Of a DNA stretch of 64,000 nucleotides, positions 16,550 to 26,977 are shown in pieces. A program made the position numbers and the translations under genes. Origin of the DNA: Alphaproteobacteria bacterium (lineage in GTDB: Bacteria; Pseudomonadota; Alphaproteobacteria; Caulobacterales; Hyphomonadaceae); NCBI GenBank assembly GCA_016125405.1, contig WGLW01000025.1, positions 1-64,000 on the forward strand, read 5' to 3'. A model generated the notes under the pieces. That model saw only the letters and a program-made list of their open reading frames with translations. It ran no database searches and was not told the origin of the DNA. Position 1 is the first letter of the stretch; each line of letters opens with the position of its first letter.

Positions 16550-18541
16550 CTAGTGCAGGTCTTGCTCGCTTGCGTCCTTCTGCGCCCGGCGTCCCATCAT
16601 CTTCGACACGACGGCGAGTTCCGGCGCTTCCAGGGCGCCGTCCTTATTGGCGTCCAGCTTGTCGAAATTAGCCAGCAGCATCTTGCTCATCCGGCCTCTC
16701 ACCTCGGACTTCTCGACCTTGCCGTCGATGTTGGTGTCCAGAATGCCCATCATTCGGCCCGAGTTCAGCTCGGTCATGTATTCCGGTTTCTGGTTGGCGA
16801 CGGTTTCGTCGTCCCAGCGGAACGCGATGGCCGTGTACTGCATCTCGTCGAAGGATTGCTCGCCCCAGGTGATTTCGCGTGTCGGGTCGGGATTGGCGAG
16901 GTTGTTCGGCGAGTTGTCGTACTCGTAGCGTGTAACGATACGCGAGCCTTTCGGCACCTTGATAGGCGCTGCGAAATCGTAGAAGCGCTGCCAGTTGAAG
17001 TCGTATTGCGGCAGGCTGAGGATCAACTCCTCCTTGCCGCCCGGCTTCTGCAGGTAGATGTGCGCGTTCTCGCCGCGATAGTGGGCGTGCGGGAAGATCG
17101 AATAGATCGTCGCGTCTTCCGGAAAGTCGAGATAGGCGACCTCCTTGTGGTGCGCCTTGCCGGCCGGGATATCGATGTTGATGTTGGCGATCACCGCTGA
17201 GCGGCGAACGATCGTTGGCGGCGCATCCTTCGGATAGAAGTAGAGGCCGACGCGGGTCACGTCCGTCGTTTCCTTGCCATAGGGCGTATAGTGCATCTGG
17301 AACTGGAACGGCGTGCCGGGCTCCACCCAGCTGCCGGAGCCTTTCTGGAAGACGACTGATTCGGCGCCCACCGCGTAGCTACCCACGCCGTTGGAGAGCA
17401 GGTGGTGGACAGCCTGACGATCGCCGGCGATCACCGTCGTCGCTCTTAGCCAGTGGTCTTCCTTCAATTCGTTCGCGACCTTTGGATACTGGTAGTCGAC
17501 GACGCCCGACGCCGGGACCTTGAACGGCGGCAGCGTGATGATGAAGTCCGGTTTGCCCAGCGGCCACTCAGGCGCCGGCTTTGCGCTGGCCTTCAATGGA
17601 TCGATGGCGCTGTCGCCGCGGGCGGCGCCGGCTTCGATCCAGTGCACGAGGGTCTGGGCGTCCTTGTTGGAGAGGTTGAGGTCGCCCGAGAACTTGCCGA
17701 TGTGTGGATCGGCGTTGTAGGGCGGCATCCGGTCGTTCCGGATCACTTCGCGGATCATCGGGGCGAAACCCTTCACCTTCTGATAGCTGTCCATCGCAAA
17801 AGGCGCGATGCCGCCTTCCGAGTGGCAGGCGACGCAGTTCTTCTGAAGGATCGGCGCCACGTCATTTGCGTAGGAGATCTTCACGAAGTCCGCCTGGTGG
17901 TCGCGCTGCGGGAAGGCGATCGAGGGGCTTTCGAGTTTCGCGGTCGACACCTGAACGCCTTCGCCGGCGAGCAGGCTATCGAGCGTGTCGGCGAGGTAGG
18001 CCGTCTTGACGGCGGCCTTCGGTTTGGCTGATCGGCCAGAGAAGCGATCGTCAATCGGGCCGTGATAGGCGACTTTCCAGCCTTTGGGGTCGATCACGAA
18101 CGCTTCGCCAACATGGGAAATGCCGAGGTTCTCGCCGATCAGCTGAGCATCATCGATCAGCACCGGCATATCGATTCCGATCTTTTCGGCTTCCTGCTTG
18201 ACGGCGATCTCGTCGTTCACCGGCGTCGAGTTCATCATGTAGAACACAACACCCTTGTCTGCGTACTTCGCCTTGAGCGCGTTCAGCGCGGGAACCAGAT
18301 CGTGGACAAACGGCGAGCCATTGACCTGCGAGACGATCACGACCGCCGGAGCGTTCTTGTGATAATAGAGGTCGTGGGCGATCGAATTCTGGTCGACAAG
18401 ACGAAAATCGCCGACCTTTGCCGGCACCTTTACGTCCGTTACCGAGGCGGCTTCGCGACTGGTTTGACCGACTGCTGCGACGCCCAGCAATGCGGCTGCG
18501 GCGACCGTCGCTGTCATAATTCCAATAAGTCGGTGTTTCAT
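16550..18541 (-). CDS. Redoxin / cytochrome c / PHM-like copper monooxygenase / EF-hand fusion, exported
   Basis: This is a 663-residue exported multidomain protein. In order: a signal peptide; a redoxin (AhpC/TSA-like) domain, about 40-195, whose usual cysteine site reads NGSPFVHDL and has no cysteine; a c-type haem site CVACH at 236-240 with a likely axial methionine in NDRMPPY; a copper type II ascorbate-dependent (PHM-like) domain with HHLLS, MHYTPYG and FPHAHYRG as candidate copper ligands; and two complete EF-hand loops, DTNIDGKVEKSE and DANKDGALEAPE. The start was set by GAGGAGAC seven bases before ATG 18541. The order resembles redoxin-cytochrome-monooxygenase proteins of other Gram-negatives. 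The reaction is unknown; electron delivery from haem to copper is inferred. It lies downstream of apbE on the same strand. Confidence 0.85.
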   Translation of the reverse strand: MKHRLIGIMTATVAAAALLGVAAVGQTSREAASVTDVKVPAKVGDFRLVDQNSIAHDLYYHKNAPAVVIVSQVNGSPFVHDLVPALNALKAKYADKGVVFYMMNSTPVNDEIAVKQEAEKIGIDMPVLIDDAQLIGENLGISHVGEAFVIDPKGWKVAYHGPIDDRFSGRSAKPKAAVKTAYLADTLDSLLAGEGVQVSTAKLESPSIAFPQRDHQADFVKISYANDVAPILQKNCVACHSEGGIAPFAMDSYQKVKGFAPMIREVIRNDRMPPYNADPHIGKFSGDLNLSNKDAQTLVHWIEAGAARGDSAIDPLKASAKPAPEWPLGKPDFIITLPPFKVPASGVVDYQYPKVANELKEDHWLRATTVIAGDRQAVHHLLSNGVGSYAVGAESVVFQKGSGSWVEPGTPFQFQMHYTPYGKETTDVTRVGLYFYPKDAPPTIVRRSAVIANINIDIPAGKAHHKEVAYLDFPEDATIYSIFPHAHYRGENAHIYLQKPGGKEELILSLPQYDFNWQRFYDFAAPIKVPKGSRIVTRYEYDNSPNNLANPDPTREITWGEQSFDEMQYTAIAFRWDDETVANQKPEYMTELNSGRMMGILDTNIDGKVEKSEVRGRMSKMLLANFDKLDANKDGALEAPELAVVSKMMGRRAQKDASEQDLH

Positions 18542-18877
18542 GGCATGTCTCCTCGACAGCAAATTCTGCGCGCAAGTCGGGATATCTCGACGGACATCGA
18601 TGCAGCGCTGCAGGCCACACTCACAAAAGTTGGAAATCGATGCAAGGAAGCGGAGGCCCGTTAGACCCTCTCACGCGCAATCCGGCAGTAAGATCGTCGC
18701 AACTTTCCGCGAGATTTGTAACATCCTGTCGCGTAATCAGTGCTCGCACCTGACTTTATGGCGCTGGCGCGTGGCCTCGCTCTCCGCAATCAGACCAACG
18801 CTAACCAGTCTCTGCCTCTCGCGTATCCGGGTGGCAGGGGCGATGAGACGCCATTTAGTCGGGTCCCGACAGATCTG
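18542..18877. other. Intergenic region, no gene seen
   Basis: These 336 bp lie between apbE and the redoxin/cytochrome fusion. I see no coding frame with family features, no strong terminator and no repeat. The gap and the ribosome site of the following gene suggest the fusion gene has its own promoter rather than belonging strictly to the apbE operon. Confidence 0.4.
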
Positions 18878-19777
18878 CTAACGAACCCACCATGCCTTAA
18901 TGCCTTCACGTCGAAGAAACCGCTCCGCACCCCGGCCATGAAGCATGGCCACTGTCGATAGTACGCCGGCCTCAAGGCAGGTCGTTGCGGCGACAGTTAC
19001 CGACCGTGGCGGATCCTTCACTGGCCATCCGGTGCGAGGGTCCAGAATATGACTGTAACGGACGCCATCCTTGAGCAGGTATCGACGCGCGTCGCCACTC
19101 GTCGTGAGTGCGCCGGCGCCGATTTCAAGATGCGCGCCTGAGGGGCCGGATCGGTCGACCGACTCGATATCCACGCGCCATCTCGTTCCATCCGCGCGCA
19201 ACTTGCTGGCTCTGAGATCGCCGCCAAAATTCACCAGAACGGGAACATCGCTTGCGGCCTCGATGATCTCGATTGCCCGATCAACAGCATACTCCTTTCC
19301 GATGCCGCCAAAGTCGATCTCCATTCCCGGCGGTATTTGAATAATCGGGCTTCGCCAGGTAATCTTGTTCCATCCGACAAAAGGCAGGAGTTCCCGCACA
19401 CTCGCCTTCGACGGCAGACGATCCGATCCGTCAAATCGCCAGACCTTGCGAAGAATGCCGGAGGTGACGTCAAACCGGCCATCGCTCAGCGCGTAACAGT
19501 TCGAAGCATAATCGAGCAGGGCGGCCGTTTCTTCGTCAACTGGCAGGGACTGGCCATTTGAAGCGTTTATGGCGGACAAGAGGCTGTCGTCTCGATAGCG
19601 ACTGTATTTGTATTCGACGCGCGTCGCTTCGGCTTCTGCGAGCCGGCCAAGGCGCAGGGCTATGTCCTGATCGTTGGTCTCAATGTGGACCTCGCATGGC
19701 GAAGCCATCGACCGAAATTGATAAAGATGGCCCTGAACCAGCCTTGTGAGCATCGCCGAATTCGGTTCAATCGGCAT
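18878..19777 (-). CDS. apbE: ApbE-type FAD:protein FMN transferase
   Basis: This is an about 299-residue ApbE-family enzyme, which attaches FMN from FAD to a threonine or serine of a target protein. Family blocks are present: FRSMASPCEVHI; the YSRYRDDSLLSAIN region; FDVTSGILRKVWRF; IDFGGIGKEYAVDRA; TSGDARRYLLKDGVRYSHILDPRTGWPV; and the Mg-binding segment CLEAGVLSTVAM, where the usual aspartate is a glutamate. No signal peptide or lipobox is visible, unlike many exported ApbE proteins. The start is uncertain (19777 chosen; 19753 and a TTG at 19798 are possible). It lies 33 bp (12 bp if the TTG start is used) after the DUF3570 gene, whose product carries a candidate FMN-acceptor motif. Confidence 0.9.
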   Translation of the reverse strand: MPIEPNSAMLTRLVQGHLYQFRSMASPCEVHIETNDQDIALRLGRLAEAEATRVEYKYSRYRDDSLLSAINASNGQSLPVDEETAALLDYASNCYALSDGRFDVTSGILRKVWRFDGSDRLPSKASVRELLPFVGWNKITWRSPIIQIPPGMEIDFGGIGKEYAVDRAIEIIEAASDVPVLVNFGGDLRASKLRADGTRWRVDIESVDRSGPSGAHLEIGAGALTTSGDARRYLLKDGVRYSHILDPRTGWPVKDPPRSVTVAATTCLEAGVLSTVAMLHGRGAERFLRREGIKAWWVR

Positions 19778-19810
19778 TCGCTCTGGCGCCCATTGCAATC
19801 CATTCCAAAT

Positions 19811-21217
19811 CTACCGGAACGCGAAACTCAAGCCTATGATTGCACTCGTTGCATTCACGCCGCCAAACAGATTTTGGTCTGCGAGACCACCCGGCGCGCC
19901 TGCAGGGTGCGTCGTCCCGGATTGCCTGTAATCCTCGTATTGAAAGTAGATTTCGCTGTATCGCGTGATGCGGAAACCCAGCTTCAAGCCTGCGGTGATT
20001 GCGCTGAACTTTCCGAGCCGGCTGTCGGAACTGGCGAACGATGGAAGCGGCTGCCCGTCGATAAGGTAGTTGTGAAAGAAGTCAGCGGCGCCCTGGTTGT
20101 AGTAACGGACGCCAGGTTCGAGATAGAAGCGCTGACCAAATGGAATGCGGTCGGACAGGCTTACGGTATATGACGTGATGCCCCAGTCGTCGTGGTAAGC
20201 ACGTGCGGAAAAATCCGCAAACGTAGGGCCCAGTGCAACCTTGTTGCCCCAGAATACGCTTTGTCGAAGGCGATTATCAGGCCGGCCCTCATAGAGATAT
20301 CGTATTGGCGCGCCTGATACCCCGTCCACGACCGATATGATCTTGTAGGGATCCGTTTGGTAGCCAGTGCTCCGTCCGACGCTATAGTTCAGTTGCGTCA
20401 GCCAGTAGCGGTTCATGACCTGAGTGACGCCAGCGACGAGGCCAATAACCGATTTCGACCTGTCGCCGCCTTTTACGTCGGCGTTCATCTCGGTGAACGG
20501 CGTAGGCGTGCCGAAGATCGGCGCGGACTGGTCGTACTCATAATCGAGTGCTGCGGAAACTGTCGTATTCCGGTGATTGAAGTCGCGAGAAAGCCCCGCA
20601 TTGACCGAGAAAGAACGATAGTCCCGTTCATCCGAGTAGCTGCCGCCCAGTGAGTAACGACTTGCCGCGCCAAGCGGCGAGGAATAGCCGATGTCGACTG
20701 CATAACGTTGATCCCGGAAGCCGGAATCAACGGGCAGCGTGTTCGCGGGCGCTGTGTACTGACGCGCGACCGTGCCCGTACCCGGGATCGTGACGATGCG
20801 ACTACCGCCGGACGCGCCGGTAACGGTCGCGGTTGTGCCGGGAGCGTGTGCGGGCGTGGTGAATACCTGATCCTGGCTCCAGGGTGCAGCGCCGTTGGGT
20901 GTCGCGCCCGTCAACGTGTCGGAGGTGAGCTTGAGGTTCAGCGTTTCCCCGTCGGATCCATTGAGGGTAAAGCTCGTGACCGGCTCGGTTGCTTTAACTC
21001 GACCTCCGGCTTCCTGGTAGAATAATACAGAACTGTCGATTCTTGTTCTTCCTGTCGCAAGATCAGAGCCAGGATCGTAATCGTCCTGCGTCGTTGTAAC
21101 GGTCTGCGCTATCTGGTCGACCGGTCGTTCCTGGGCATGGGCCGCCACCGCCGACAGGAGATTGGCGGTCAGAAGTCCCAATGCACTGCTGATCTGCCTG
21201 TTGCGTCCGCTACGCAT
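19811..21217 (-). CDS. DUF3570 outer-membrane beta-barrel protein with candidate flavinylation motif
   Basis: This is a 468-residue DUF3570 protein: signal peptide (LTANLLSAVAAHAQ), then alternating amphipathic strands throughout, ending SFAFR with a terminal-strand pattern. The sequence DTLTGAT at about residues 100-106 (bases 20920-20900) matches the Dxx(S/T)GAT core that ApbE enzymes flavinylate in proteins such as NqrC. The ATG at 21217 overlaps the DUF4266 stop (TGATG), so translation is coupled. TlpA, DUF4266, DUF3570 and ApbE genes recur together in proteobacteria, but the family has no established function that I know of. Covalent FMN on this barrel is my inference. Confidence 0.85.
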   Translation of the reverse strand: MRSGRNRQISSALGLLTANLLSAVAAHAQERPVDQIAQTVTTTQDDYDPGSDLATGRTRIDSSVLFYQEAGGRVKATEPVTSFTLNGSDGETLNLKLTSDTLTGATPNGAAPWSQDQVFTTPAHAPGTTATVTGASGGSRIVTIPGTGTVARQYTAPANTLPVDSGFRDQRYAVDIGYSSPLGAASRYSLGGSYSDERDYRSFSVNAGLSRDFNHRNTTVSAALDYEYDQSAPIFGTPTPFTEMNADVKGGDRSKSVIGLVAGVTQVMNRYWLTQLNYSVGRSTGYQTDPYKIISVVDGVSGAPIRYLYEGRPDNRLRQSVFWGNKVALGPTFADFSARAYHDDWGITSYTVSLSDRIPFGQRFYLEPGVRYYNQGAADFFHNYLIDGQPLPSFASSDSRLGKFSAITAGLKLGFRITRYSEIYFQYEDYRQSGTTHPAGAPGGLADQNLFGGVNATSAIIGLSFAFR

Positions 21218-21468
21218 CAGTTGCACCCGCAACCTCCGCCATCGAACGTCCGTCCACCGCTGGAGCCTTCCTTGCTGAAGTAGATGTGCTCTTCGGCGGC
21301 GGTGATATTCGGATGCGTGTTGAGCTCCATCGCCTGCTTGGCCATCAGATCACGATCCCAGGCAGCCGCACCGAGGTGGACGCAACCACCTGACGCCGCC
21401 ATCAGACTTCCCGCTAACAAGACCCGTGCAATGCGGGGCGCTTTTGCTTTTGAAGTGTCATCTTTCAT
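21217..21468 (-). CDS. DUF4266 small lipoprotein with C-terminal GGGCGCN
   Basis: This is an 83-residue DUF4266 protein. The N-terminal segment RIARVLLAGSLMAASGGC ends in a probable lipobox cysteine (about residue 28). The family core follows (WDRDLMAKQAMEL, EEHIYFSKEGSSGG) and the protein ends in GGGCGCN. The start at 21468 was set by GGAG seven bases ahead; it overlaps the TlpA stop by 11 bases, and its own stop overlaps the next start. The paired C-terminal cysteines next to a thioredoxin gene suggest a redox-active or metal-binding tail, but no function is established. Confidence 0.85.
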   Translation of the reverse strand: MKDDTSKAKAPRIARVLLAGSLMAASGGCVHLGAAAWDRDLMAKQAMELNTHPNITAAEEHIYFSKEGSSGGRTFDGGGCGCN

Positions 21469-22000
21469 GGAGAAGCTCCGTGATGTGGGCGTCATAAAGG
21501 GGCGTTTTTTCAGGGAAAAAGCCCTTGTGTATGTAGCGAATGCTTCCATCACGGCCGATCAGGATGGATGTCGGCATTTCCTTGACGCCGAAACGGGTCG
21601 CCAATTTTCCGGAACTGTCGAACAGGATCGGAACGTTGCCTCCGAAGCGCTTCAGGAACGCATCCGCCTTGGCGCGATCGTGGTCTACATCGACCGCAAT
21701 GACAGCGAGATCGCTGCCGGGAAATCGCGTCGTCAGACCATTCATGTAGGGGAAGGAGAGGTGGCAGGGCCCGCACCAGGAAGCCCAGAAGTCAAGGTAG
21801 AGGACCTTGCCTCTATAATCAGCAAGATCGAAATCCGGATTAGGCGGTGCAGCGGTTGCAGCCGGTCCGGAGACGAGAATTCCCGCCACTGCAAGAATAC
21901 AGGCCCGCCGTGTTGGATAGACGGCGTGACAGGGAAGTGGCTCTGCAGCGGCGGTGCTGTTCGGACAATCGACAGTCTTGTTCCTGGGCGAACTCAACAT
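21458..22000 (-). CDS. TlpA-like thioredoxin-fold oxidoreductase
   Basis: This is an about 180-residue exported thiol-disulfide protein. It has a hydrophobic N-terminal segment (TRRACILAVAGILVSGPAATA), then the thioredoxin fold with active site WCGPC at residues 75-79 and the cis-proline loop KEMPTSILIGRDG. It probably reduces disulfides in the periplasm. It is the first well-supported gene of the TlpA-DUF4266-DUF3570-ApbE operon and overlaps the DUF4266 start. The start is uncertain: ATG 22000 or GTG 22009. A plausible partner is the cysteine pair at the C-terminus of DUF4266; that link is inferred from position only. Confidence 0.9.
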   Translation of the reverse strand: MLSSPRNKTVDCPNSTAAAEPLPCHAVYPTRRACILAVAGILVSGPAATAAPPNPDFDLADYRGKVLYLDFWASWCGPCHLSFPYMNGLTTRFPGSDLAVIAVDVDHDRAKADAFLKRFGGNVPILFDSSGKLATRFGVKEMPTSILIGRDGSIRYIHKGFFPEKTPLYDAHITELLHER

Positions 22001-22087
22001 TGGACCCACCAGTTCGAAGTCGCGGCGATAGGATCGCCGTTGTCGCGCGTTAGACCCGGTCTGGTCAGACCGAGGTCACAGCCGGAC

Positions 22088-22255
22088 TTATGCGTCCTTG
22101 TCGACTATGGCGCCCTGGGTTGAGGGCAAGGCGGCCTTGCCCTTTGCGCCATCGCCATCGCCATCGTGGTCAGGATCAATCGCAACCTTCGGAGCAGGTT
22201 GCGATTGATGGCTTGGGGGAATGACAGGCTGCAAGTTGACCGGTTTGATATTCAT
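22088..22255 (-). CDS. 55-residue peptide with DxDxDG calcium-type loop
   Basis: A short frame starts at ATG 22255 with a good GGAGG box. The product has a proline/glutamine-rich N-terminal half (NIKPVNLQPVIPPSHQSQPAPK) and the acidic stretch DPDHDGDGDG at residues 27-36, matching the DxDxDG calcium-binding loop pattern. There is no signal peptide or membrane segment. It precedes the TlpA gene on the same strand by about 90 bp. Similar tiny DxDxDG peptides occur in proteobacteria without known function. I believe it is a gene because of the ribosome site and the motif, but the evidence is thin. Confidence 0.5.
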   Translation of the reverse strand: MNIKPVNLQPVIPPSHQSQPAPKVAIDPDHDGDGDGAKGKAALPSTQGAIVDKDA

Positions 22256-22814: not shown

Positions 22815-25208
22815 TCAGAAGGACTTGCGGAGGGAAATTCCAACGGTTCTCGGCCGCAACGGCGTCACCAGCGTTTGTTGCGGCTGGTAGGGGTTACCCG
22901 CCGAGTAGGTCTTGCCGTCGGAATTGGTGAGATTATCGACGTAGAGAGTGGCTTGCCAGGATTGGACCGTCAGACCGAGGCGCGCACGCACCGTGATGTA
23001 ATCGCCAATCGGCGGGCCGACGCCGAAACCGAGCGTCGATTCGCCGACATAGTCTCCGCCCAGCTCCATAAAGGCGCGGGACTGAACTGATCCGAACTGG
23101 AGGTATTTCGAATACTGTATCAAGGCGCCGCCCGAATATTCCGGCGACCCCGGCAATCCTCCTGTGATCGCCTGGGGGAAGGAGGCGCTTACATGCGAGA
23201 TATCGGGTTCGTTGATCAGGCCGTGAGCCTGCAGGGCGAGATCGGGCGTGGGTTCATATTTGACTTCGAATTCCAGTCCCGTTGCCTGTGCGTTACCGAC
23301 ATTGCCGGAATATGGAAATCCGTTGACGACAAGAGCGTCCGTCTGAACGCCACGCCAGTCGCTTTCGAACACCGTTGCACGCAGCGCCAGCCGGTCGTCC
23401 ATCAGCGTTAGCCGCGCGCCGATTTCGTACGTCCAGATCTCGTCATCCAGATAACGCTGGAAGGGCTGTGACGAGGCCGAGAATGGCTGATCGATCGGCC
23501 CGCCGGTGTTGAAGCCGCCAGCGCGATACCCGCTCGCAGCGGAGAGGTACAGGAGAAACGCATGAGATGGCTGGAATGATAACCTGATGTCCGGCGCAAT
23601 TCCCCTGGACGTAAGATGATCAGCTGTAGCTTTCTGCGATCCCAGAAGCGGCTCGCTTGTGGTGGAATGCATACTGAGGGTCGACCTGAACAACCGCAGC
23701 CCTGTGCTCAATGATATCTGCGGCGTGAGGCTCCATGTCGCCTGGCCGAAAAGAGCGAGTTCATCCACCGCGTCCCGCCGGCTTTCCAGGTAATCGAGAC
23801 TGTCCCAGACACCGTAATCTCCGTCACGAAGGGCGACATCCCGATTGCTGTCCCCATCCGCATAGAAAAACCCGAAAAACCACGGAAGCGATGCGCTTGC
23901 AGGTGAACTGAGCCTTGTCTCATGAACAAGGATGCCGAGAGAATCCTGTTCGTCGATCGGTTGGACCGTGTCTGGCGGGGCTCCAAATTGATCGAATGCC
24001 CCGCTCGCATCAAACCGGCTTCCGAACTGGTGCTTCACGTAAGAAGTCGTTGACGTGAGGTCGCCCCAGTCCGTTTTGCCACGCAAAGTCAGGCCTATCA
24101 TACCAAAGTCGTTGTCATGTGGTTCGGGCATCGCGGCCGTGCGTTGCAGGCCCGACGGGGTTTCGGAAAGGTACTGGGAGTCCTTCGAGGTGATTCCCTG
24201 CGTGACCCCAGTCAACTCAACGGACCAACTGTTGCTTATCTTCAGCAGAGCCGCCAGACGGGCGCCATTTCTGCCCGCGGCGTTGGTATTGCTTGTTCCA
24301 AGTTTCGGGTTATCGAGCCAGCCACCCCAGGACTGATTGTAGAATACGGTTCTGACGCCGAGACGGCCTCGCACAAGCGGTGCGTTGAGCACCGCCTCTC
24401 CATTTGTTCCGGTGTCGCCGCCGTTCGTCGCCTCCGAGGAGACGAGCATTGAGCCGTTAAAATGATCGAGGTCCACCTGGTTGGCGTCGATCCGCATGAT
24501 CCCGCCGAGCGCTCCTGCGCCATAGAGGGCGCCTTGCGGTCCGCGCAATACCTCGACCGAGGCGATATCGACGAGTTGTAGATCAGGGTCCGGCGCGCCA
24601 TAGGTGATGCGTGTGTCATTGAAATAAAGACCCACCAGAGACTGCGTGCGGCCCGTCAGGGCGCCATCGGAGAGTCCTCGCAGCAGGATCTTGTTTCGCC
24701 CTTCGCCGAGATTGGTGAAGGATAATCCGCTGATACTGCCTGAAAGGCCGGAATCGCTGGTTATTCCGGCGGCAGTCGTCTGGTCGATTTCCAGGTGCGT
24801 TACGTCTCGTGGAAGATCCGACTCGAAACTTGGCGCTTTCGCCGAAACAATAATTACGTCGGGCGCCTGCGAAGGGGAGGTCGGTCTCGCCGGTCGGGCA
24901 GCCTTCGTCGTTTTGGGAAAAATCCGATACCCACCCTGACCCACGCGCTCGAAGGCATAGCCGGTTCCCGACAGAAGACCCGTTAGCGCGCTCTCTGGAG
25001 TACGTGCCCCAGACAGTCCTTCGCTCTTTATGGACTGCAAGCCGTTTGGCGGAAGGGATAGCGAGACATTGGCCTGCAATGCAAAACGAACAAGCGCCGA
25101 CTCAAGCGATTGAGGCGGGATCTCGAACGTCACCACCTCTTGCGCGCGGGCCACGGGCAGGCCGCACAATAGCGCTCCGGATAGTGCGAGAAGCGCTGGC
25201 CTGATCAA
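22815..25208 (-). CDS. FecA-type TonB receptor with N-terminal signalling (STN) domain
   Basis: This is a 797-residue receptor. The signal peptide ends at ARAQ; an STN signalling domain (FEIPPQSLESALVRFALQANVSL to GGYRIF, about residues 25-100) is followed by a linker, the plug (ISGLSFTNLGEGRNKILLRGLSDG, ALYGAGALGGIMRIDAN) and a barrel ending in SLRKSF. The STN domain is what lets FecA-like receptors signal to an inner-membrane FecR protein, and the fecR-like and sigma genes lie immediately upstream. The barrel resembles the iron-complex receptor subgroup of sphingomonads. The ligand is unknown; a siderophore, haem or metal chelate is likely. It is separated from the fecR-like stop by only five bases. 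Confidence 0.93.
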   Translation of the reverse strand: MIRPALLALSGALLCGLPVARAQEVVTFEIPPQSLESALVRFALQANVSLSLPPNGLQSIKSEGLSGARTPESALTGLLSGTGYAFERVGQGGYRIFPKTTKAARPARPTSPSQAPDVIIVSAKAPSFESDLPRDVTHLEIDQTTAAGITSDSGLSGSISGLSFTNLGEGRNKILLRGLSDGALTGRTQSLVGLYFNDTRITYGAPDPDLQLVDIASVEVLRGPQGALYGAGALGGIMRIDANQVDLDHFNGSMLVSSEATNGGDTGTNGEAVLNAPLVRGRLGVRTVFYNQSWGGWLDNPKLGTSNTNAAGRNGARLAALLKISNSWSVELTGVTQGITSKDSQYLSETPSGLQRTAAMPEPHDNDFGMIGLTLRGKTDWGDLTSTTSYVKHQFGSRFDASGAFDQFGAPPDTVQPIDEQDSLGILVHETRLSSPASASLPWFFGFFYADGDSNRDVALRDGDYGVWDSLDYLESRRDAVDELALFGQATWSLTPQISLSTGLRLFRSTLSMHSTTSEPLLGSQKATADHLTSRGIAPDIRLSFQPSHAFLLYLSAASGYRAGGFNTGGPIDQPFSASSQPFQRYLDDEIWTYEIGARLTLMDDRLALRATVFESDWRGVQTDALVVNGFPYSGNVGNAQATGLEFEVKYEPTPDLALQAHGLINEPDISHVSASFPQAITGGLPGSPEYSGGALIQYSKYLQFGSVQSRAFMELGGDYVGESTLGFGVGPPIGDYITVRARLGLTVQSWQATLYVDNLTNSDGKTYSAGNPYQPQQTLVTPLRPRTVGISLRKSF

Positions 25209-25213
25209 GGCGA

Positions 25214-26212
25214 TTATCTGCTCCTGATGACGATTTCTCCCTTCTCTTCATCCGAGCGTAGCGGGAGAAACGCCTCCAACTGTGAGACCATATTTCTGGC
25301 GGGCTGTATCATGAGTACGCCCGAAAAGCGAAGCTGCCCAACGGATGTATCCGCCAGCCGGATGGGCTCGGCGCCGTAACGGTTCAGGTCCTCGACAATC
25401 GTTGCGAGGGTCGCATCATGATAAATCAGCCGGCCTTGCCGCCACGCGAACGCATCGTCCGGGTTGACCTGAGACAGGATCGCCTGATGCTTTGCGTGGT
25501 CGACGAGAAGGGCGTGTCCGGCGTTTACGTTGACTGACGTCCCGCCAGGGCCTTTCACGCCGACGGCGCCATCTCGCACAGTAACAAGCAACCCGTCGGC
25601 CCGTCGCTGGAGGTTGAACTCTGTTCCGATATCCCGGACCGTGTCCTCTCCAGCCAGTACGAGAAAGGGATGTGCAGGGTCATGATTGACGCTGAACGCA
25701 GCTTCGCCCTTGTCCAGGTAGACACGGCGTTCCTTCACTGTCCATCGTACGCGGATTACGGCTCCGCGGTTGAGGTCGGCTATAGACATGTCCGGCAATG
25801 TTATGGAGCGTGATGCATCGGCAGGAGCGGAATAGCTTGTCTCCTCAACGGATGGTGTCATCACCCTCGGAACAACGAAGAATGCAGCAGCACTCGCCAG
25901 AGCCAGGGCGATCGCGCCGCCCCAGGCCGCTCGAATACGTCCCTGGGAGCGCCTCCCGGAGCGCATCGGAGTGACCTTTGTACTCCTTACCGGCGACTTG
26001 AGCGCCGCTGCGATCTCTCCGGCGTGATCATCAATTTCAGCGATCGCGTTTTCGACGACGACGAGCGCCGCCTTGTTCTCCGCATCACCCAGCCAGGCCT
26101 CGAAGTTTAGCCAGTCCGTCTCGGAGGCGTCGTCCGACTGGAGGCGAACCAGCCAGGCCGCCGCGGCCTCGCGGCGCTCGTCTTCGGTGTTTGGCGACTG
26201 GTCCGCGCTCAT
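25214..26212 (-). CDS. FecR-type transmembrane anti-sigma/sigma regulator
   Basis: This is a 332-residue FecR-family protein: a cytoplasmic N-terminal DUF4880 domain (EAAAAWLVRLQSDDASETDWLNFEAWL), one membrane segment (about residues 95-118), the FecR periplasmic domain (ADLNRGAVIRVRW to VTVRDGAVGV) and a DUF4974 STN-like tail (ATLATIVEDLNRYGAEPIRLADTSVGQLRFSGV). It relays ligand occupancy of the adjacent receptor to the ECF sigma factor. It is placed in the order sigma-FecR-receptor on one strand, the standard arrangement. The start at 26212 is supported by GGGA just upstream, although spacing is tight. Confidence 0.93.
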   Translation of the reverse strand: MSADQSPNTEDERREAAAAWLVRLQSDDASETDWLNFEAWLGDAENKAALVVVENAIAEIDDHAGEIAAALKSPVRSTKVTPMRSGRRSQGRIRAAWGGAIALALASAAAFFVVPRVMTPSVEETSYSAPADASRSITLPDMSIADLNRGAVIRVRWTVKERRVYLDKGEAAFSVNHDPAHPFLVLAGEDTVRDIGTEFNLQRRADGLLVTVRDGAVGVKGPGGTSVNVNAGHALLVDHAKHQAILSQVNPDDAFAWRQGRLIYHDATLATIVEDLNRYGAEPIRLADTSVGQLRFSGVLMIQPARNMVSQLEAFLPLRSDEEKGEIVIRSR

Positions 26213-26312
26213 ATTCCCGTGGCCCTGGACGAAGGTCTGCACTCTTCCTGTTGTAGTAGACGCCGCGCACGCAATGGCGCCACAGCCAATTGAGGCGAAA
26301 TATAGGCGCAGG

Positions 26313-26819
26313 TCACGGCTTGTGCTCCGAAAGGCGCTTCAGGGCCGTGATCATGTGCTTTTCGACCGCACTGCGCGAAATTCCCAGCAGTGTCGCAATT
26401 TCCGCGTAACTGCGATCTTCGAATTTATGCATGGTAAAGACGCGCCTGCACTGAGGCGGCAAGGCTTCGACGGATCTGACGAGGCGATCCAGGCGCTGCT
26501 TTGCATCCAGTCTGGCCTCCGGAGAGGGCAGGTCCGCTTCATCTTCGCCAACCGGCTGCCCGGTTCGATGAGTGCGGTAATAGGCGTCATCGCGAACGGT
26601 CGCGCGTCGTCGGGCCCGCGCCCTGTCCAGCATGACGTTGGAGCCCAGACGGTAAAGATACGCGGCGCCGTTTTCAATCCCGGTATCATCAACGCTCGAA
26701 AGCTTCAGGAAGATGTCCTGGACGATATCCTCAGCCTCGCCGGGCGATGACGTTCTGGCCGCAAAAAAGCGAACAAGATCGGCGCGTTTGGCCAGATACA
26801 GCGTCATCAAGGCCGACAT
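26313..26819 (-). CDS. ECF sigma factor, FecI-type
   Basis: This is an about 168-residue sigma-70 of the extracytoplasmic-function class. Region 2 (LVRFFAARTSSPGEAEDIVQDIFLKL and AAYLYRLGSNVMLDRARARRR) is followed by region 4 (EALPPQCRRVFTMHKFEDRSYAEIATLLGISRSAVEKHM), both intact. It heads the sigma-FecR-receptor set and should direct transcription of the receptor gene when the receptor binds its ligand. The start is uncertain: ATG 26819 lacks a clear ribosome site, and TTG 26843 is an alternative. Confidence 0.92.
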   Translation of the reverse strand: MSALMTLYLAKRADLVRFFAARTSSPGEAEDIVQDIFLKLSSVDDTGIENGAAYLYRLGSNVMLDRARARRRATVRDDAYYRTHRTGQPVGEDEADLPSPEARLDAKQRLDRLVRSVEALPPQCRRVFTMHKFEDRSYAEIATLLGISRSAVEKHMITALKRLSEHKP

Positions 26820-26977
26820 GCGAGGTTCGGTCGAATGTCCCAAGTGTCCGCCAGCGCGCGACTAATATCCTTCTGGAGCTTCACCTCGCGGGCGCGTTCG
26901 TCAATCCCGATTCGCTTGATCACATTGCCGCTGGGTTGAGCCGCACTTGCGCCCGAATTCGGGCCCGCCAGCCGGAG

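Follow-up and report, generated by a model that had tools for sequence, protein, structure and literature searches.

The DNA analysed here (the window) is a 64,000-nucleotide stretch, positions 1 to 64,000 of contig WGLW01000025.1 from an alphaproteobacterium of the family Hyphomonadaceae. Its minus strand carries a four-gene operon that encodes a TlpA/ResA-like thioredoxin, a small DUF4266 lipoprotein, a DUF3570 protein and an ApbE-family flavin mononucleotide (FMN) transferase. The DUF3570 protein, a predicted outer-membrane beta-barrel, is very probably flavinylated by the neighbouring ApbE at its DTLTGAT motif, and the operon as a whole rather likely specifies a cell-surface flavoprotein system that is loaded by an atypical, leaderless ApbE. 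The central idea, flavinylation, is established for the DUF3570 family; a preliminary description of this DNA that proposed it was hence right in kind, but the idea is not new.

Operon structure and probable flavinylation sites

All four genes were verified on the minus strand, and Pfam matches and coordinates bear out the preliminary description of them as overlapping or closely spaced. The TlpA-like protein (21458–22009; Redoxin, 4.2e-22) has a CGPC sequence and a hydrophobic N-terminal stretch with a peak of 3.07. The DUF4266 gene (21217–21462; PF14086, 1.7e-18) encodes a protein whose Cys27 is invariant in the 25 sequences aligned, as are Met45, His59 and the two cysteines, C78 and C80, of the C-terminal GGGCGCN tail (21220–21240). 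This tail is present in 146 of 149 DUF4266 open reading frames (ORFs), a count that is no test of the tail, as most loci were fetched with it as the query. The DUF3570 gene (19811–21232; PF12094, 7.9e-104) overlaps the DUF4266 gene, which in turn overlaps that of TlpA, and the ApbE gene (18878–19798; PF02424, 1.6e-66, 225 bits against a profile cut-off of 25.6) starts 12 bases past the end of DUF3570. The operon's GC content of 0.58 is among the lower values in the window, whose own is 0.61; this is no proof of transfer.

The four families encoded together, the [S/T]GA[S/T] in DUF3570 and the C-terminal CxC in DUF4266 mark the operon as a flavinylation cluster. In 2021 Meheust et al. (PMC8238504, the only paper in the literature searched that names DUF3570 or DUF4266) reported clusters of ApbE, DUF3570, thioredoxin and DUF4266 genes and noted the CxC tail of DUF4266. 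They leave the function uncertain and propose iron assimilation for some of the clusters. The Chlorobium luteolum DUF3570 protein was flavinylated by its ApbE, and the modification was abolished only when both serine [S/T]GA[S/T] sites were removed; for the coexpression, done in E. coli, the signal peptides of both proteins were truncated, and recovery was from the cell pellet (PMC8238504). A chain that stays in the cytosol can thus serve as a substrate.

DTLTGAT occupies residues 105–111 of the window DUF3570 protein (20900–20920), where the preliminary description had placed it, and a second motif which that description missed, TGAS at residues 138–141 (20810–20821), is a possible further site with no Asp at position −3. 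The congener (genome G104) has the same operon, with a DUF3570 that carries a single site, DSLTGAS. A search of the window's own genome found one ApbE and no profile match to FMN_bind or DUF2271 (0 for each). The lone ApbE, the C. luteolum precedent and the predicted barrel all support the view of DUF3570 as an ApbE-flavinylated barrel, and it is highly likely that Thr111 is the residue modified.

Homologues came from a search of named genomes with the DUF4266-tail pattern, which gave at least 118 loci (among the 118 listed, 116 contain one or more of the four genes); of the 149 DUF3570 profile matches from these loci, phylum loci and the window, 138 were aligned. [ST]GA[ST] occurs 139 times in the 138 homologues, where 7.8 occurrences are expected and the scrambled control [ST]AG[ST] occurs 6 times, and for D..[ST]GA[ST] the count is 76, with 0.45 expected from shuffling; because the homologues are related, the occurrences cannot be treated as independent. 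In 86 DUF3570/ApbE pairs the start of ApbE is readable and lies within 1.1 kb (50 with ApbE downstream and 36 with it upstream). The strict form [DE]xx[ST]GA[ST] stands at the aligned site in 42 of these 86 DUF3570s. It is present in 40 of the 47 pairs that have the window gene order and a leaderless ApbE, and in 1 of the 36 ApbE-upstream pairs, 35 of which belong to a Bacteroidota branch; the site there is mostly [ST]SAS, and 22 of the 36 carry [ST]GA[ST] at some place in the protein. The check on whether the motif is conserved where apbE is nearby thus has a mixed outcome: the strict motif is usual in the window-type leaderless pairs and rare in the ApbE-upstream pairs, and some DUF3570s, counted below, have no motif. 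Loose sites may still be used for flavinylation, because replacing the motif Asp by Ala has minor effects and replacing its Gly by Ala leaves about 50% of the flavinylation (review PMC12052999).

The Campylobacterota DUF3570 proteins at loci L123, L145, L169 and L181 have three [ST]GA[ST] motifs each. The suggestion that DUF3570 proteins with neither SGAS nor an adjacent ApbE are flavin-free was dropped, as an ApbE is present in all 20 genomes checked, in six of them about 6 to 17 kb from DUF3570. Among eight recurring families listed from such clusters none has D..[ST][GS]A[ST], and bare [ST]GA[ST] occurs in one or two members of three of them.

The ApbE clade and candidate EF-hand-like substrates

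The window ApbE has no evident signal peptide or lipobox ahead of its domain, where the best 10-residue hydrophobicity is 0.56. The test used is a crude one (an N-terminal hydrophobicity peak with a threshold of 2.0, not SignalP); ApbE ORFs were read from their first possible start, and that at L076 was scored as hydrophobic although it extends far upstream. Of the 50 ApbEs encoded downstream of DUF3570, 47 have no peak of 2.0 or more (their median is 0.33, and two reach 1.8), and at the same 47 loci the threshold is reached by 36 of 37 DUF4266 and 39 of 42 TlpA proteins. Internal ApbE stretches reach it in 3 of 93 cases. The ApbEs encoded upstream have a signal-like stretch in 23 of 36 cases and none in 13, and the 12 leaderless upstream-type ApbEs did not form a single clade.

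Window-type ApbEs are also unusual in their active sites. A Gly replaces the Asp of the ADALAT motif (Gly278, codon 18965–18967), and a Glu replaces the Gly that follows a conserved Lys in canonical ApbEs (Glu169, codon 19292–19294), which gives the KE/AG signature. The conserved catalytic-centre residues of Vibrio cholerae ApbE are Ser241, His257 and Asp285 (PMC12052999). The Ser and His are kept in the window ApbE as S234 and H250, and its S234-H250-G278 spacings, 16 and 28, are those of the V. cholerae residues, so that by spacing Gly278 aligns with the catalytic Asp285 and the canonical triad is incomplete; Glu169 could be the replacement acid. Thirteen PDB sequences match the window ApbE (best 1vrm), and the canonical Asp is present in the four alignments displayed. 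With each gene taken once, 97 distinct ApbEs comprise 50 E/G, 45 G/D and 2 G/E types and none that is mixed (a smaller set of 93, without the later genomes, gave 47, 41 and 2, with 3 unreadable), and the E/G ApbEs are one split in a FastTree tree with support of 0.986. The lack of an evident signal peptide and the KE/AG clade together suggest that flavinylation precedes export, and flavin loading in the cytosol seems somewhat probable.

A profile made from 31 KE/AG-type ApbEs gave 26 matches of at least 240 bits in 397 genomes, many of them query members or copies thereof, and the next match scored 225 bits. Alignment shows the signature in 25 of the 26, and the remaining one (L209) has it when read in its right frame; the four next loci fetched are G/D. 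DUF3570 is present in 21 of the 26 genomes and was not detected in five. In genomes G510, G571 and G629 the ApbE neighbour is a protein of 104–133 residues with an EF-hand-like pair and, just before the pair, [ST]GAS; the N-terminal hydrophobic peak is absent (0.26 to 0.82). A protein of this kind (peak 0.95) also adjoins the ApbE of G104, where DUF3570 is present as well. These small leaderless proteins with an invariant [ST]GAS lie by KE/AG ApbEs at L221:9370–9759 (minus strand), L224:4140–4541 (plus), L225:7709–8023 (plus) and L036:9497–9814 (plus), and from their sequences they are candidates for new ApbE substrates. Pfam gave a weak EF-hand match, 4.6e-4 and below the cut-off, for the G104 protein, the one of the four that was scanned.

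When the 397 genomes were searched with the four sequences, 17 were matched. Scores above 100 bits came from G571, G510, G629 and G558, all among the five genomes without DUF3570, and the other 13 gave 46 bits or less; only G558 is independent, because the other three supplied the query. G558 has three copies with PQA[VI]SGAS, none of them linked to its ApbE (the contigs are short), as well as a 713-residue protein of repeats related to the small proteins, with a degenerate PQAVSGAR start (L253:1717–3858, minus). In the family of G558 the EF-hand-like protein occurs in 1 of 18 genomes and the KE/AG type of ApbE in 5 of 18. No such protein was found in G580, the fifth genome without DUF3570, or matched in the window's own genome. 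A literature search joining EF-hand, flavinylation and ApbE returned only a Treponema sugar-binding protein, which by its listing is unrelated.

Predicted topology, proposed electron path and alternative explanations

The AlphaFold2 model of the window DUF3570 has 16 strands and a mean predicted local distance difference test score of 85.4. Loops after the odd strands are 4, 63, 2, 21, 29, 4, 28 and 19 residues long, and turns after the even strands 2 to 5; both termini lie on the short-turn side, and therefore by the usual rule the long loops should be extracellular. Alignments with porins span residues 59 to 472 with Z of about 15 to 18 (the top row is a BamA model, 20.8), and no PDB sequence relative was found for DUF3570 or for DUF4266. 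In the model Thr111 is immediately beyond strand 3, on the predicted extracellular side, and TGAS is in the same predicted extracellular loop. The predicted extracellular loops hold 31% of residues, and all 139 motifs in the 138 aligned homologues map to them, 130 in loop 2; in a model of the L145 protein all three motifs are in odd loops, the third after strand 7. With the start Met excluded, 28 positions are at least 80% identical in 56 homologues; 23 of them are on the extracellular side (outer strand third or outer loops), the middle third has 4 and the periplasmic third 1 (Fisher p 0.01). Within the strands, 14 of 73 outer-third positions are conserved versus 1 of 73 periplasmic-third positions (p 0.0005). 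DUF3570 is thus predicted to be an outer-membrane barrel, and it is likely that its flavin is displayed at the surface.

These parts suggest the following route. The leaderless atypical-clade ApbE would transfer FMN from cytosolic flavin adenine dinucleotide (FAD) to Thr111, perhaps also to Ser141, of the DUF3570 precursor, which would pass Sec and the beta-barrel assembly machinery (BAM) to become a 16-strand outer-membrane barrel with its FMN-bearing second loop outside. Thiol electrons would run from a DsbD-type protein through periplasmic TlpA and the CxC tail of the lipoprotein DUF4266 to the flavin, a path published in outline, and the flavin would reduce an external acceptor, possibly ferric iron in view of the FecI/FecR/TonB-receptor genes upstream. 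That TlpA may keep the tail or the barrel reduced fits the published DsbD/thioredoxin model; the relay from TlpA through DUF4266 to the flavin is put forward tentatively, and iron is a doubtful choice of acceptor. A DsbD-like gene lies within the available stretch at 10 of 47 window-type loci and at 11 loci overall, and of the large thioredoxin-like matches at other loci the two scanned are a DsbD above the curated cut-off (L048) and a protein that matches DsbD below it (L172). The window's genome has three DsbD_TM matches, all on other contigs, one in a 722-residue ORF. The wider proposal, that one branch of ApbE works in the cytosol with its catalytic acid relocated (Gly at the Asp285 position, Glu169 in its stead), loads barrels before secretion, gives rise to surface flavins and serves EF-hand-like proteins too, is possible and somewhat speculative.

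Flavinylation could instead take place in the periplasm, in an otherwise identical system whose ApbE is exported by a route that is invisible in its sequence. ApbE is typically anchored to the membrane in the periplasm (PMC12052999), and the signal-like stretch in 23 of 36 upstream-type ApbEs is in keeping with this, but 47 of 50 downstream-type ApbEs lack one even when read from the first possible start, and the same clade adjoins leaderless EF-hand-like proteins in four genomes; we consider periplasmic loading improbable here. It is also improbable that DxxTGAT is mainly structural at the outer end of the barrel, with little or no flavinylation and an ApbE that is weak or serves another substrate. 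Much of the family does keep Dxx[ST]xA[ST] even where the Gly is lost or no ApbE is adjacent, and the window ApbE is missing the catalytic Asp. However, 40 of the 47 pairs with a leaderless ApbE downstream carry the strict motif, searches of this genome for other substrate families, known or candidate, found none, and the E/G swap has no mixed states in the 97 distinct ApbEs.

Metal handling would give the same genes another meaning. DUF4266 would use Met45, His59 and the CxC to bind copper or some other soft metal, TlpA would keep the thiols reduced, and a surface flavin would change the valence of the metal. The invariance of M45, H59, C78 and C80 in the 25 aligned sequences suits this, as do a CusA/CzcA-family pump after Flavobacterium cluster L129 and proteins clustering with that pump in 5 loci; against it, no metal gene was identified at most loci, where few neighbours were scanned, and two other two-component pairs or regulators score best with QseC/PmrA/QseB-type models. 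This explanation is unlikely. Little weight is given to a further one, in which the flavin is part of a selective porin or a ligand-binding surface and not an electron conduit; the porin-like fold and the conserved outer mouth agree with it, and the company of a thioredoxin and a CxC protein, with DsbD in a share of the clusters, does not.

Several observations weigh against a surface flavoprotein loaded before export. The conserved catalytic Asp is missing from the KE/AG clade, and no assay of any ApbE of that clade was found in the literature searched. The hydrophobicity test misses some exported proteins; only 23 of 46 DUF3570s reach 2.0 and 38 of 46 reach 1.8, the value of the window DUF3570. 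The 23 upstream-type ApbEs with a signal-like stretch imply that loading before export is not general, and [ST]GA[ST] is wholly lacking in 18 of the 86 ApbE-linked DUF3570s. The second window site, with no Asp, is missing in the congener and lies in a low-confidence loop of the model, and the orientation of the barrel is only inferred. The window operon has no DsbD gene, and it is in the strict sense no DsbD system; the acceptor is a guess, and its link to the FecIR and receptor genes is based on two congeners. If the readings added here to the published flavinylation are true, an outer-membrane electron carrier gets its cofactor before export and sidesteps the need for periplasmic FAD, surface covalent flavins are a flavin counterpart of outer-membrane cytochromes, ApbE enzymes come in two active-site designs, and the flavinylated proteins include an EF-hand-like one.

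Neighbouring genes, distribution and comparison with known systems

Directly upstream of the operon, all on the minus strand, are genes for a TonB-dependent receptor (22815–25208), FecR (25214–26242) and an extracytoplasmic function (ECF) sigma factor (26313–26843). The same three genes are directly upstream in both congeners (window 22815–26843, minus; L036:13299–17327, minus), and from this arrangement they are possibly tied to the operon in function. ORFs of 55 residues lie 5′ of TlpA in both (window 22088–22255 and L036:13019–13186, each on the minus strand) and by eye have DPDxDGDxD...KGALP..QG..VDxDA in common; a Pfam scan of the window ORF gave no match. Downstream of ApbE, a 670-residue protein (16550–18562, minus) has redoxin-like and cytochrome-type matches and weak Cu2_monoox_C and EF-hand matches, and the congener has other genes there. 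This redoxin/cytochrome/monooxygenase-like gene was considered as a recurrent DUF3570 partner and set aside, since the two large thioredoxin-like proteins scanned at other loci match DsbD.

DUF3570 was detected in 2 of the family's 105 genomes (the window's own included), 4 of 387 class-sample genomes (one below the cut-off) and 29 of 397 phylum-sample genomes. Three arrangements recur. The window type (TlpA, DUF4266, DUF3570, ApbE) has mostly Dxx[ST]GA[ST] at the site and is found mostly in Pseudomonadota, also in Campylobacterota, Acidobacteriota, Verrucomicrobiota and others. The Bacteroidota branch has the order TlpA, ApbE, DUF4266, DUF3570 and mostly [ST]SAS, often with a further SGAS downstream, and the third, mainly gammaproteobacterial, arrangement has mostly S[SAN]AS within a large conserved cluster, with an ApbE 6 to 17 kb off in six genomes. 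This last cluster (for example L066:1–19901) carries an HZS_alpha/PD40 protein (a family found in 19 loci), SH3 and small barrel proteins, TPR proteins and a MotA/ExbB-type gene beside DUF3570, DUF4266 and TlpA. The Chlorobiaceae DUF3570 at L152 groups with the window-type proteins in one branch, which is in line with the C. luteolum precedent, and no ApbE was found in the 3.1 kb of this locus that were covered. Two tandem DUF3570/TlpA/DUF4266 sets, DUF3570 first, lie at L171:1518–6837 with no ApbE in the stretch examined, and at L129:3106–8000 (Flavobacterium) a two-component pair and the CusA/CzcA-family pump come immediately after DUF3570. The DUF3570 of L088, labelled a Klebsiella pneumoniae metagenome-assembled genome, nests among Flavobacterium sequences, and for this reason L088 is probably a mislabelled bin. 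Plasmid records gave no match to DUF3570, the window ApbE (E up to 1e-30) or the EF-hand-like protein.

The window system is a member of the published cluster type. It is like the DsbD-type clusters of Meheust et al. (PMC8238504) in its families, the DUF3570 [S/T]GA[S/T] and the DUF4266 CxC tail, and like the 316 published clusters without DsbD in that it also has none. Its thioredoxin-like protein is of Redoxin/AhpC-TSA type, whereas that of the published clusters is PF13899, and for the C. luteolum apbE truncation of a signal peptide is described, whereas the window ApbE has no evident signal peptide; barrel topology, leaderless ApbEs and altered catalytic residues are not mentioned in the available passages. 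In those of Huang et al. 2024 (PMC11334425) the outer membrane is mentioned in one sentence on substrates and the term DUF3570 does not appear, and a literature search on flavinylated beta-barrels returned only nosX work, a weak absence since preprints and most subscription papers were not covered. Cytosolic ApbEs that serve a soluble fumarate reductase exist (PMC12052999); that of K. pneumoniae has no signal peptide, like the window ApbE, but its substrate is soluble and the predicted window substrate is an exported outer-membrane barrel. The window enzyme shares the sequence family and the Ser and His of the triad with canonical ApbEs and differs in having Gly for their Asp and Glu for their Gly. 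The DUF3570 model shares its barrel fold with 16-strand porins, BcsC, PelB, CymA and BamA, and differs from these PDB barrels in having no PDB sequence relative, flavin motifs in its loops and a conserved outer mouth. A leaderless ApbE with the KE/AG signature, the predicted display at the cell surface and a possible substrate of EF-hand-like type make the window system a variant within the published type.

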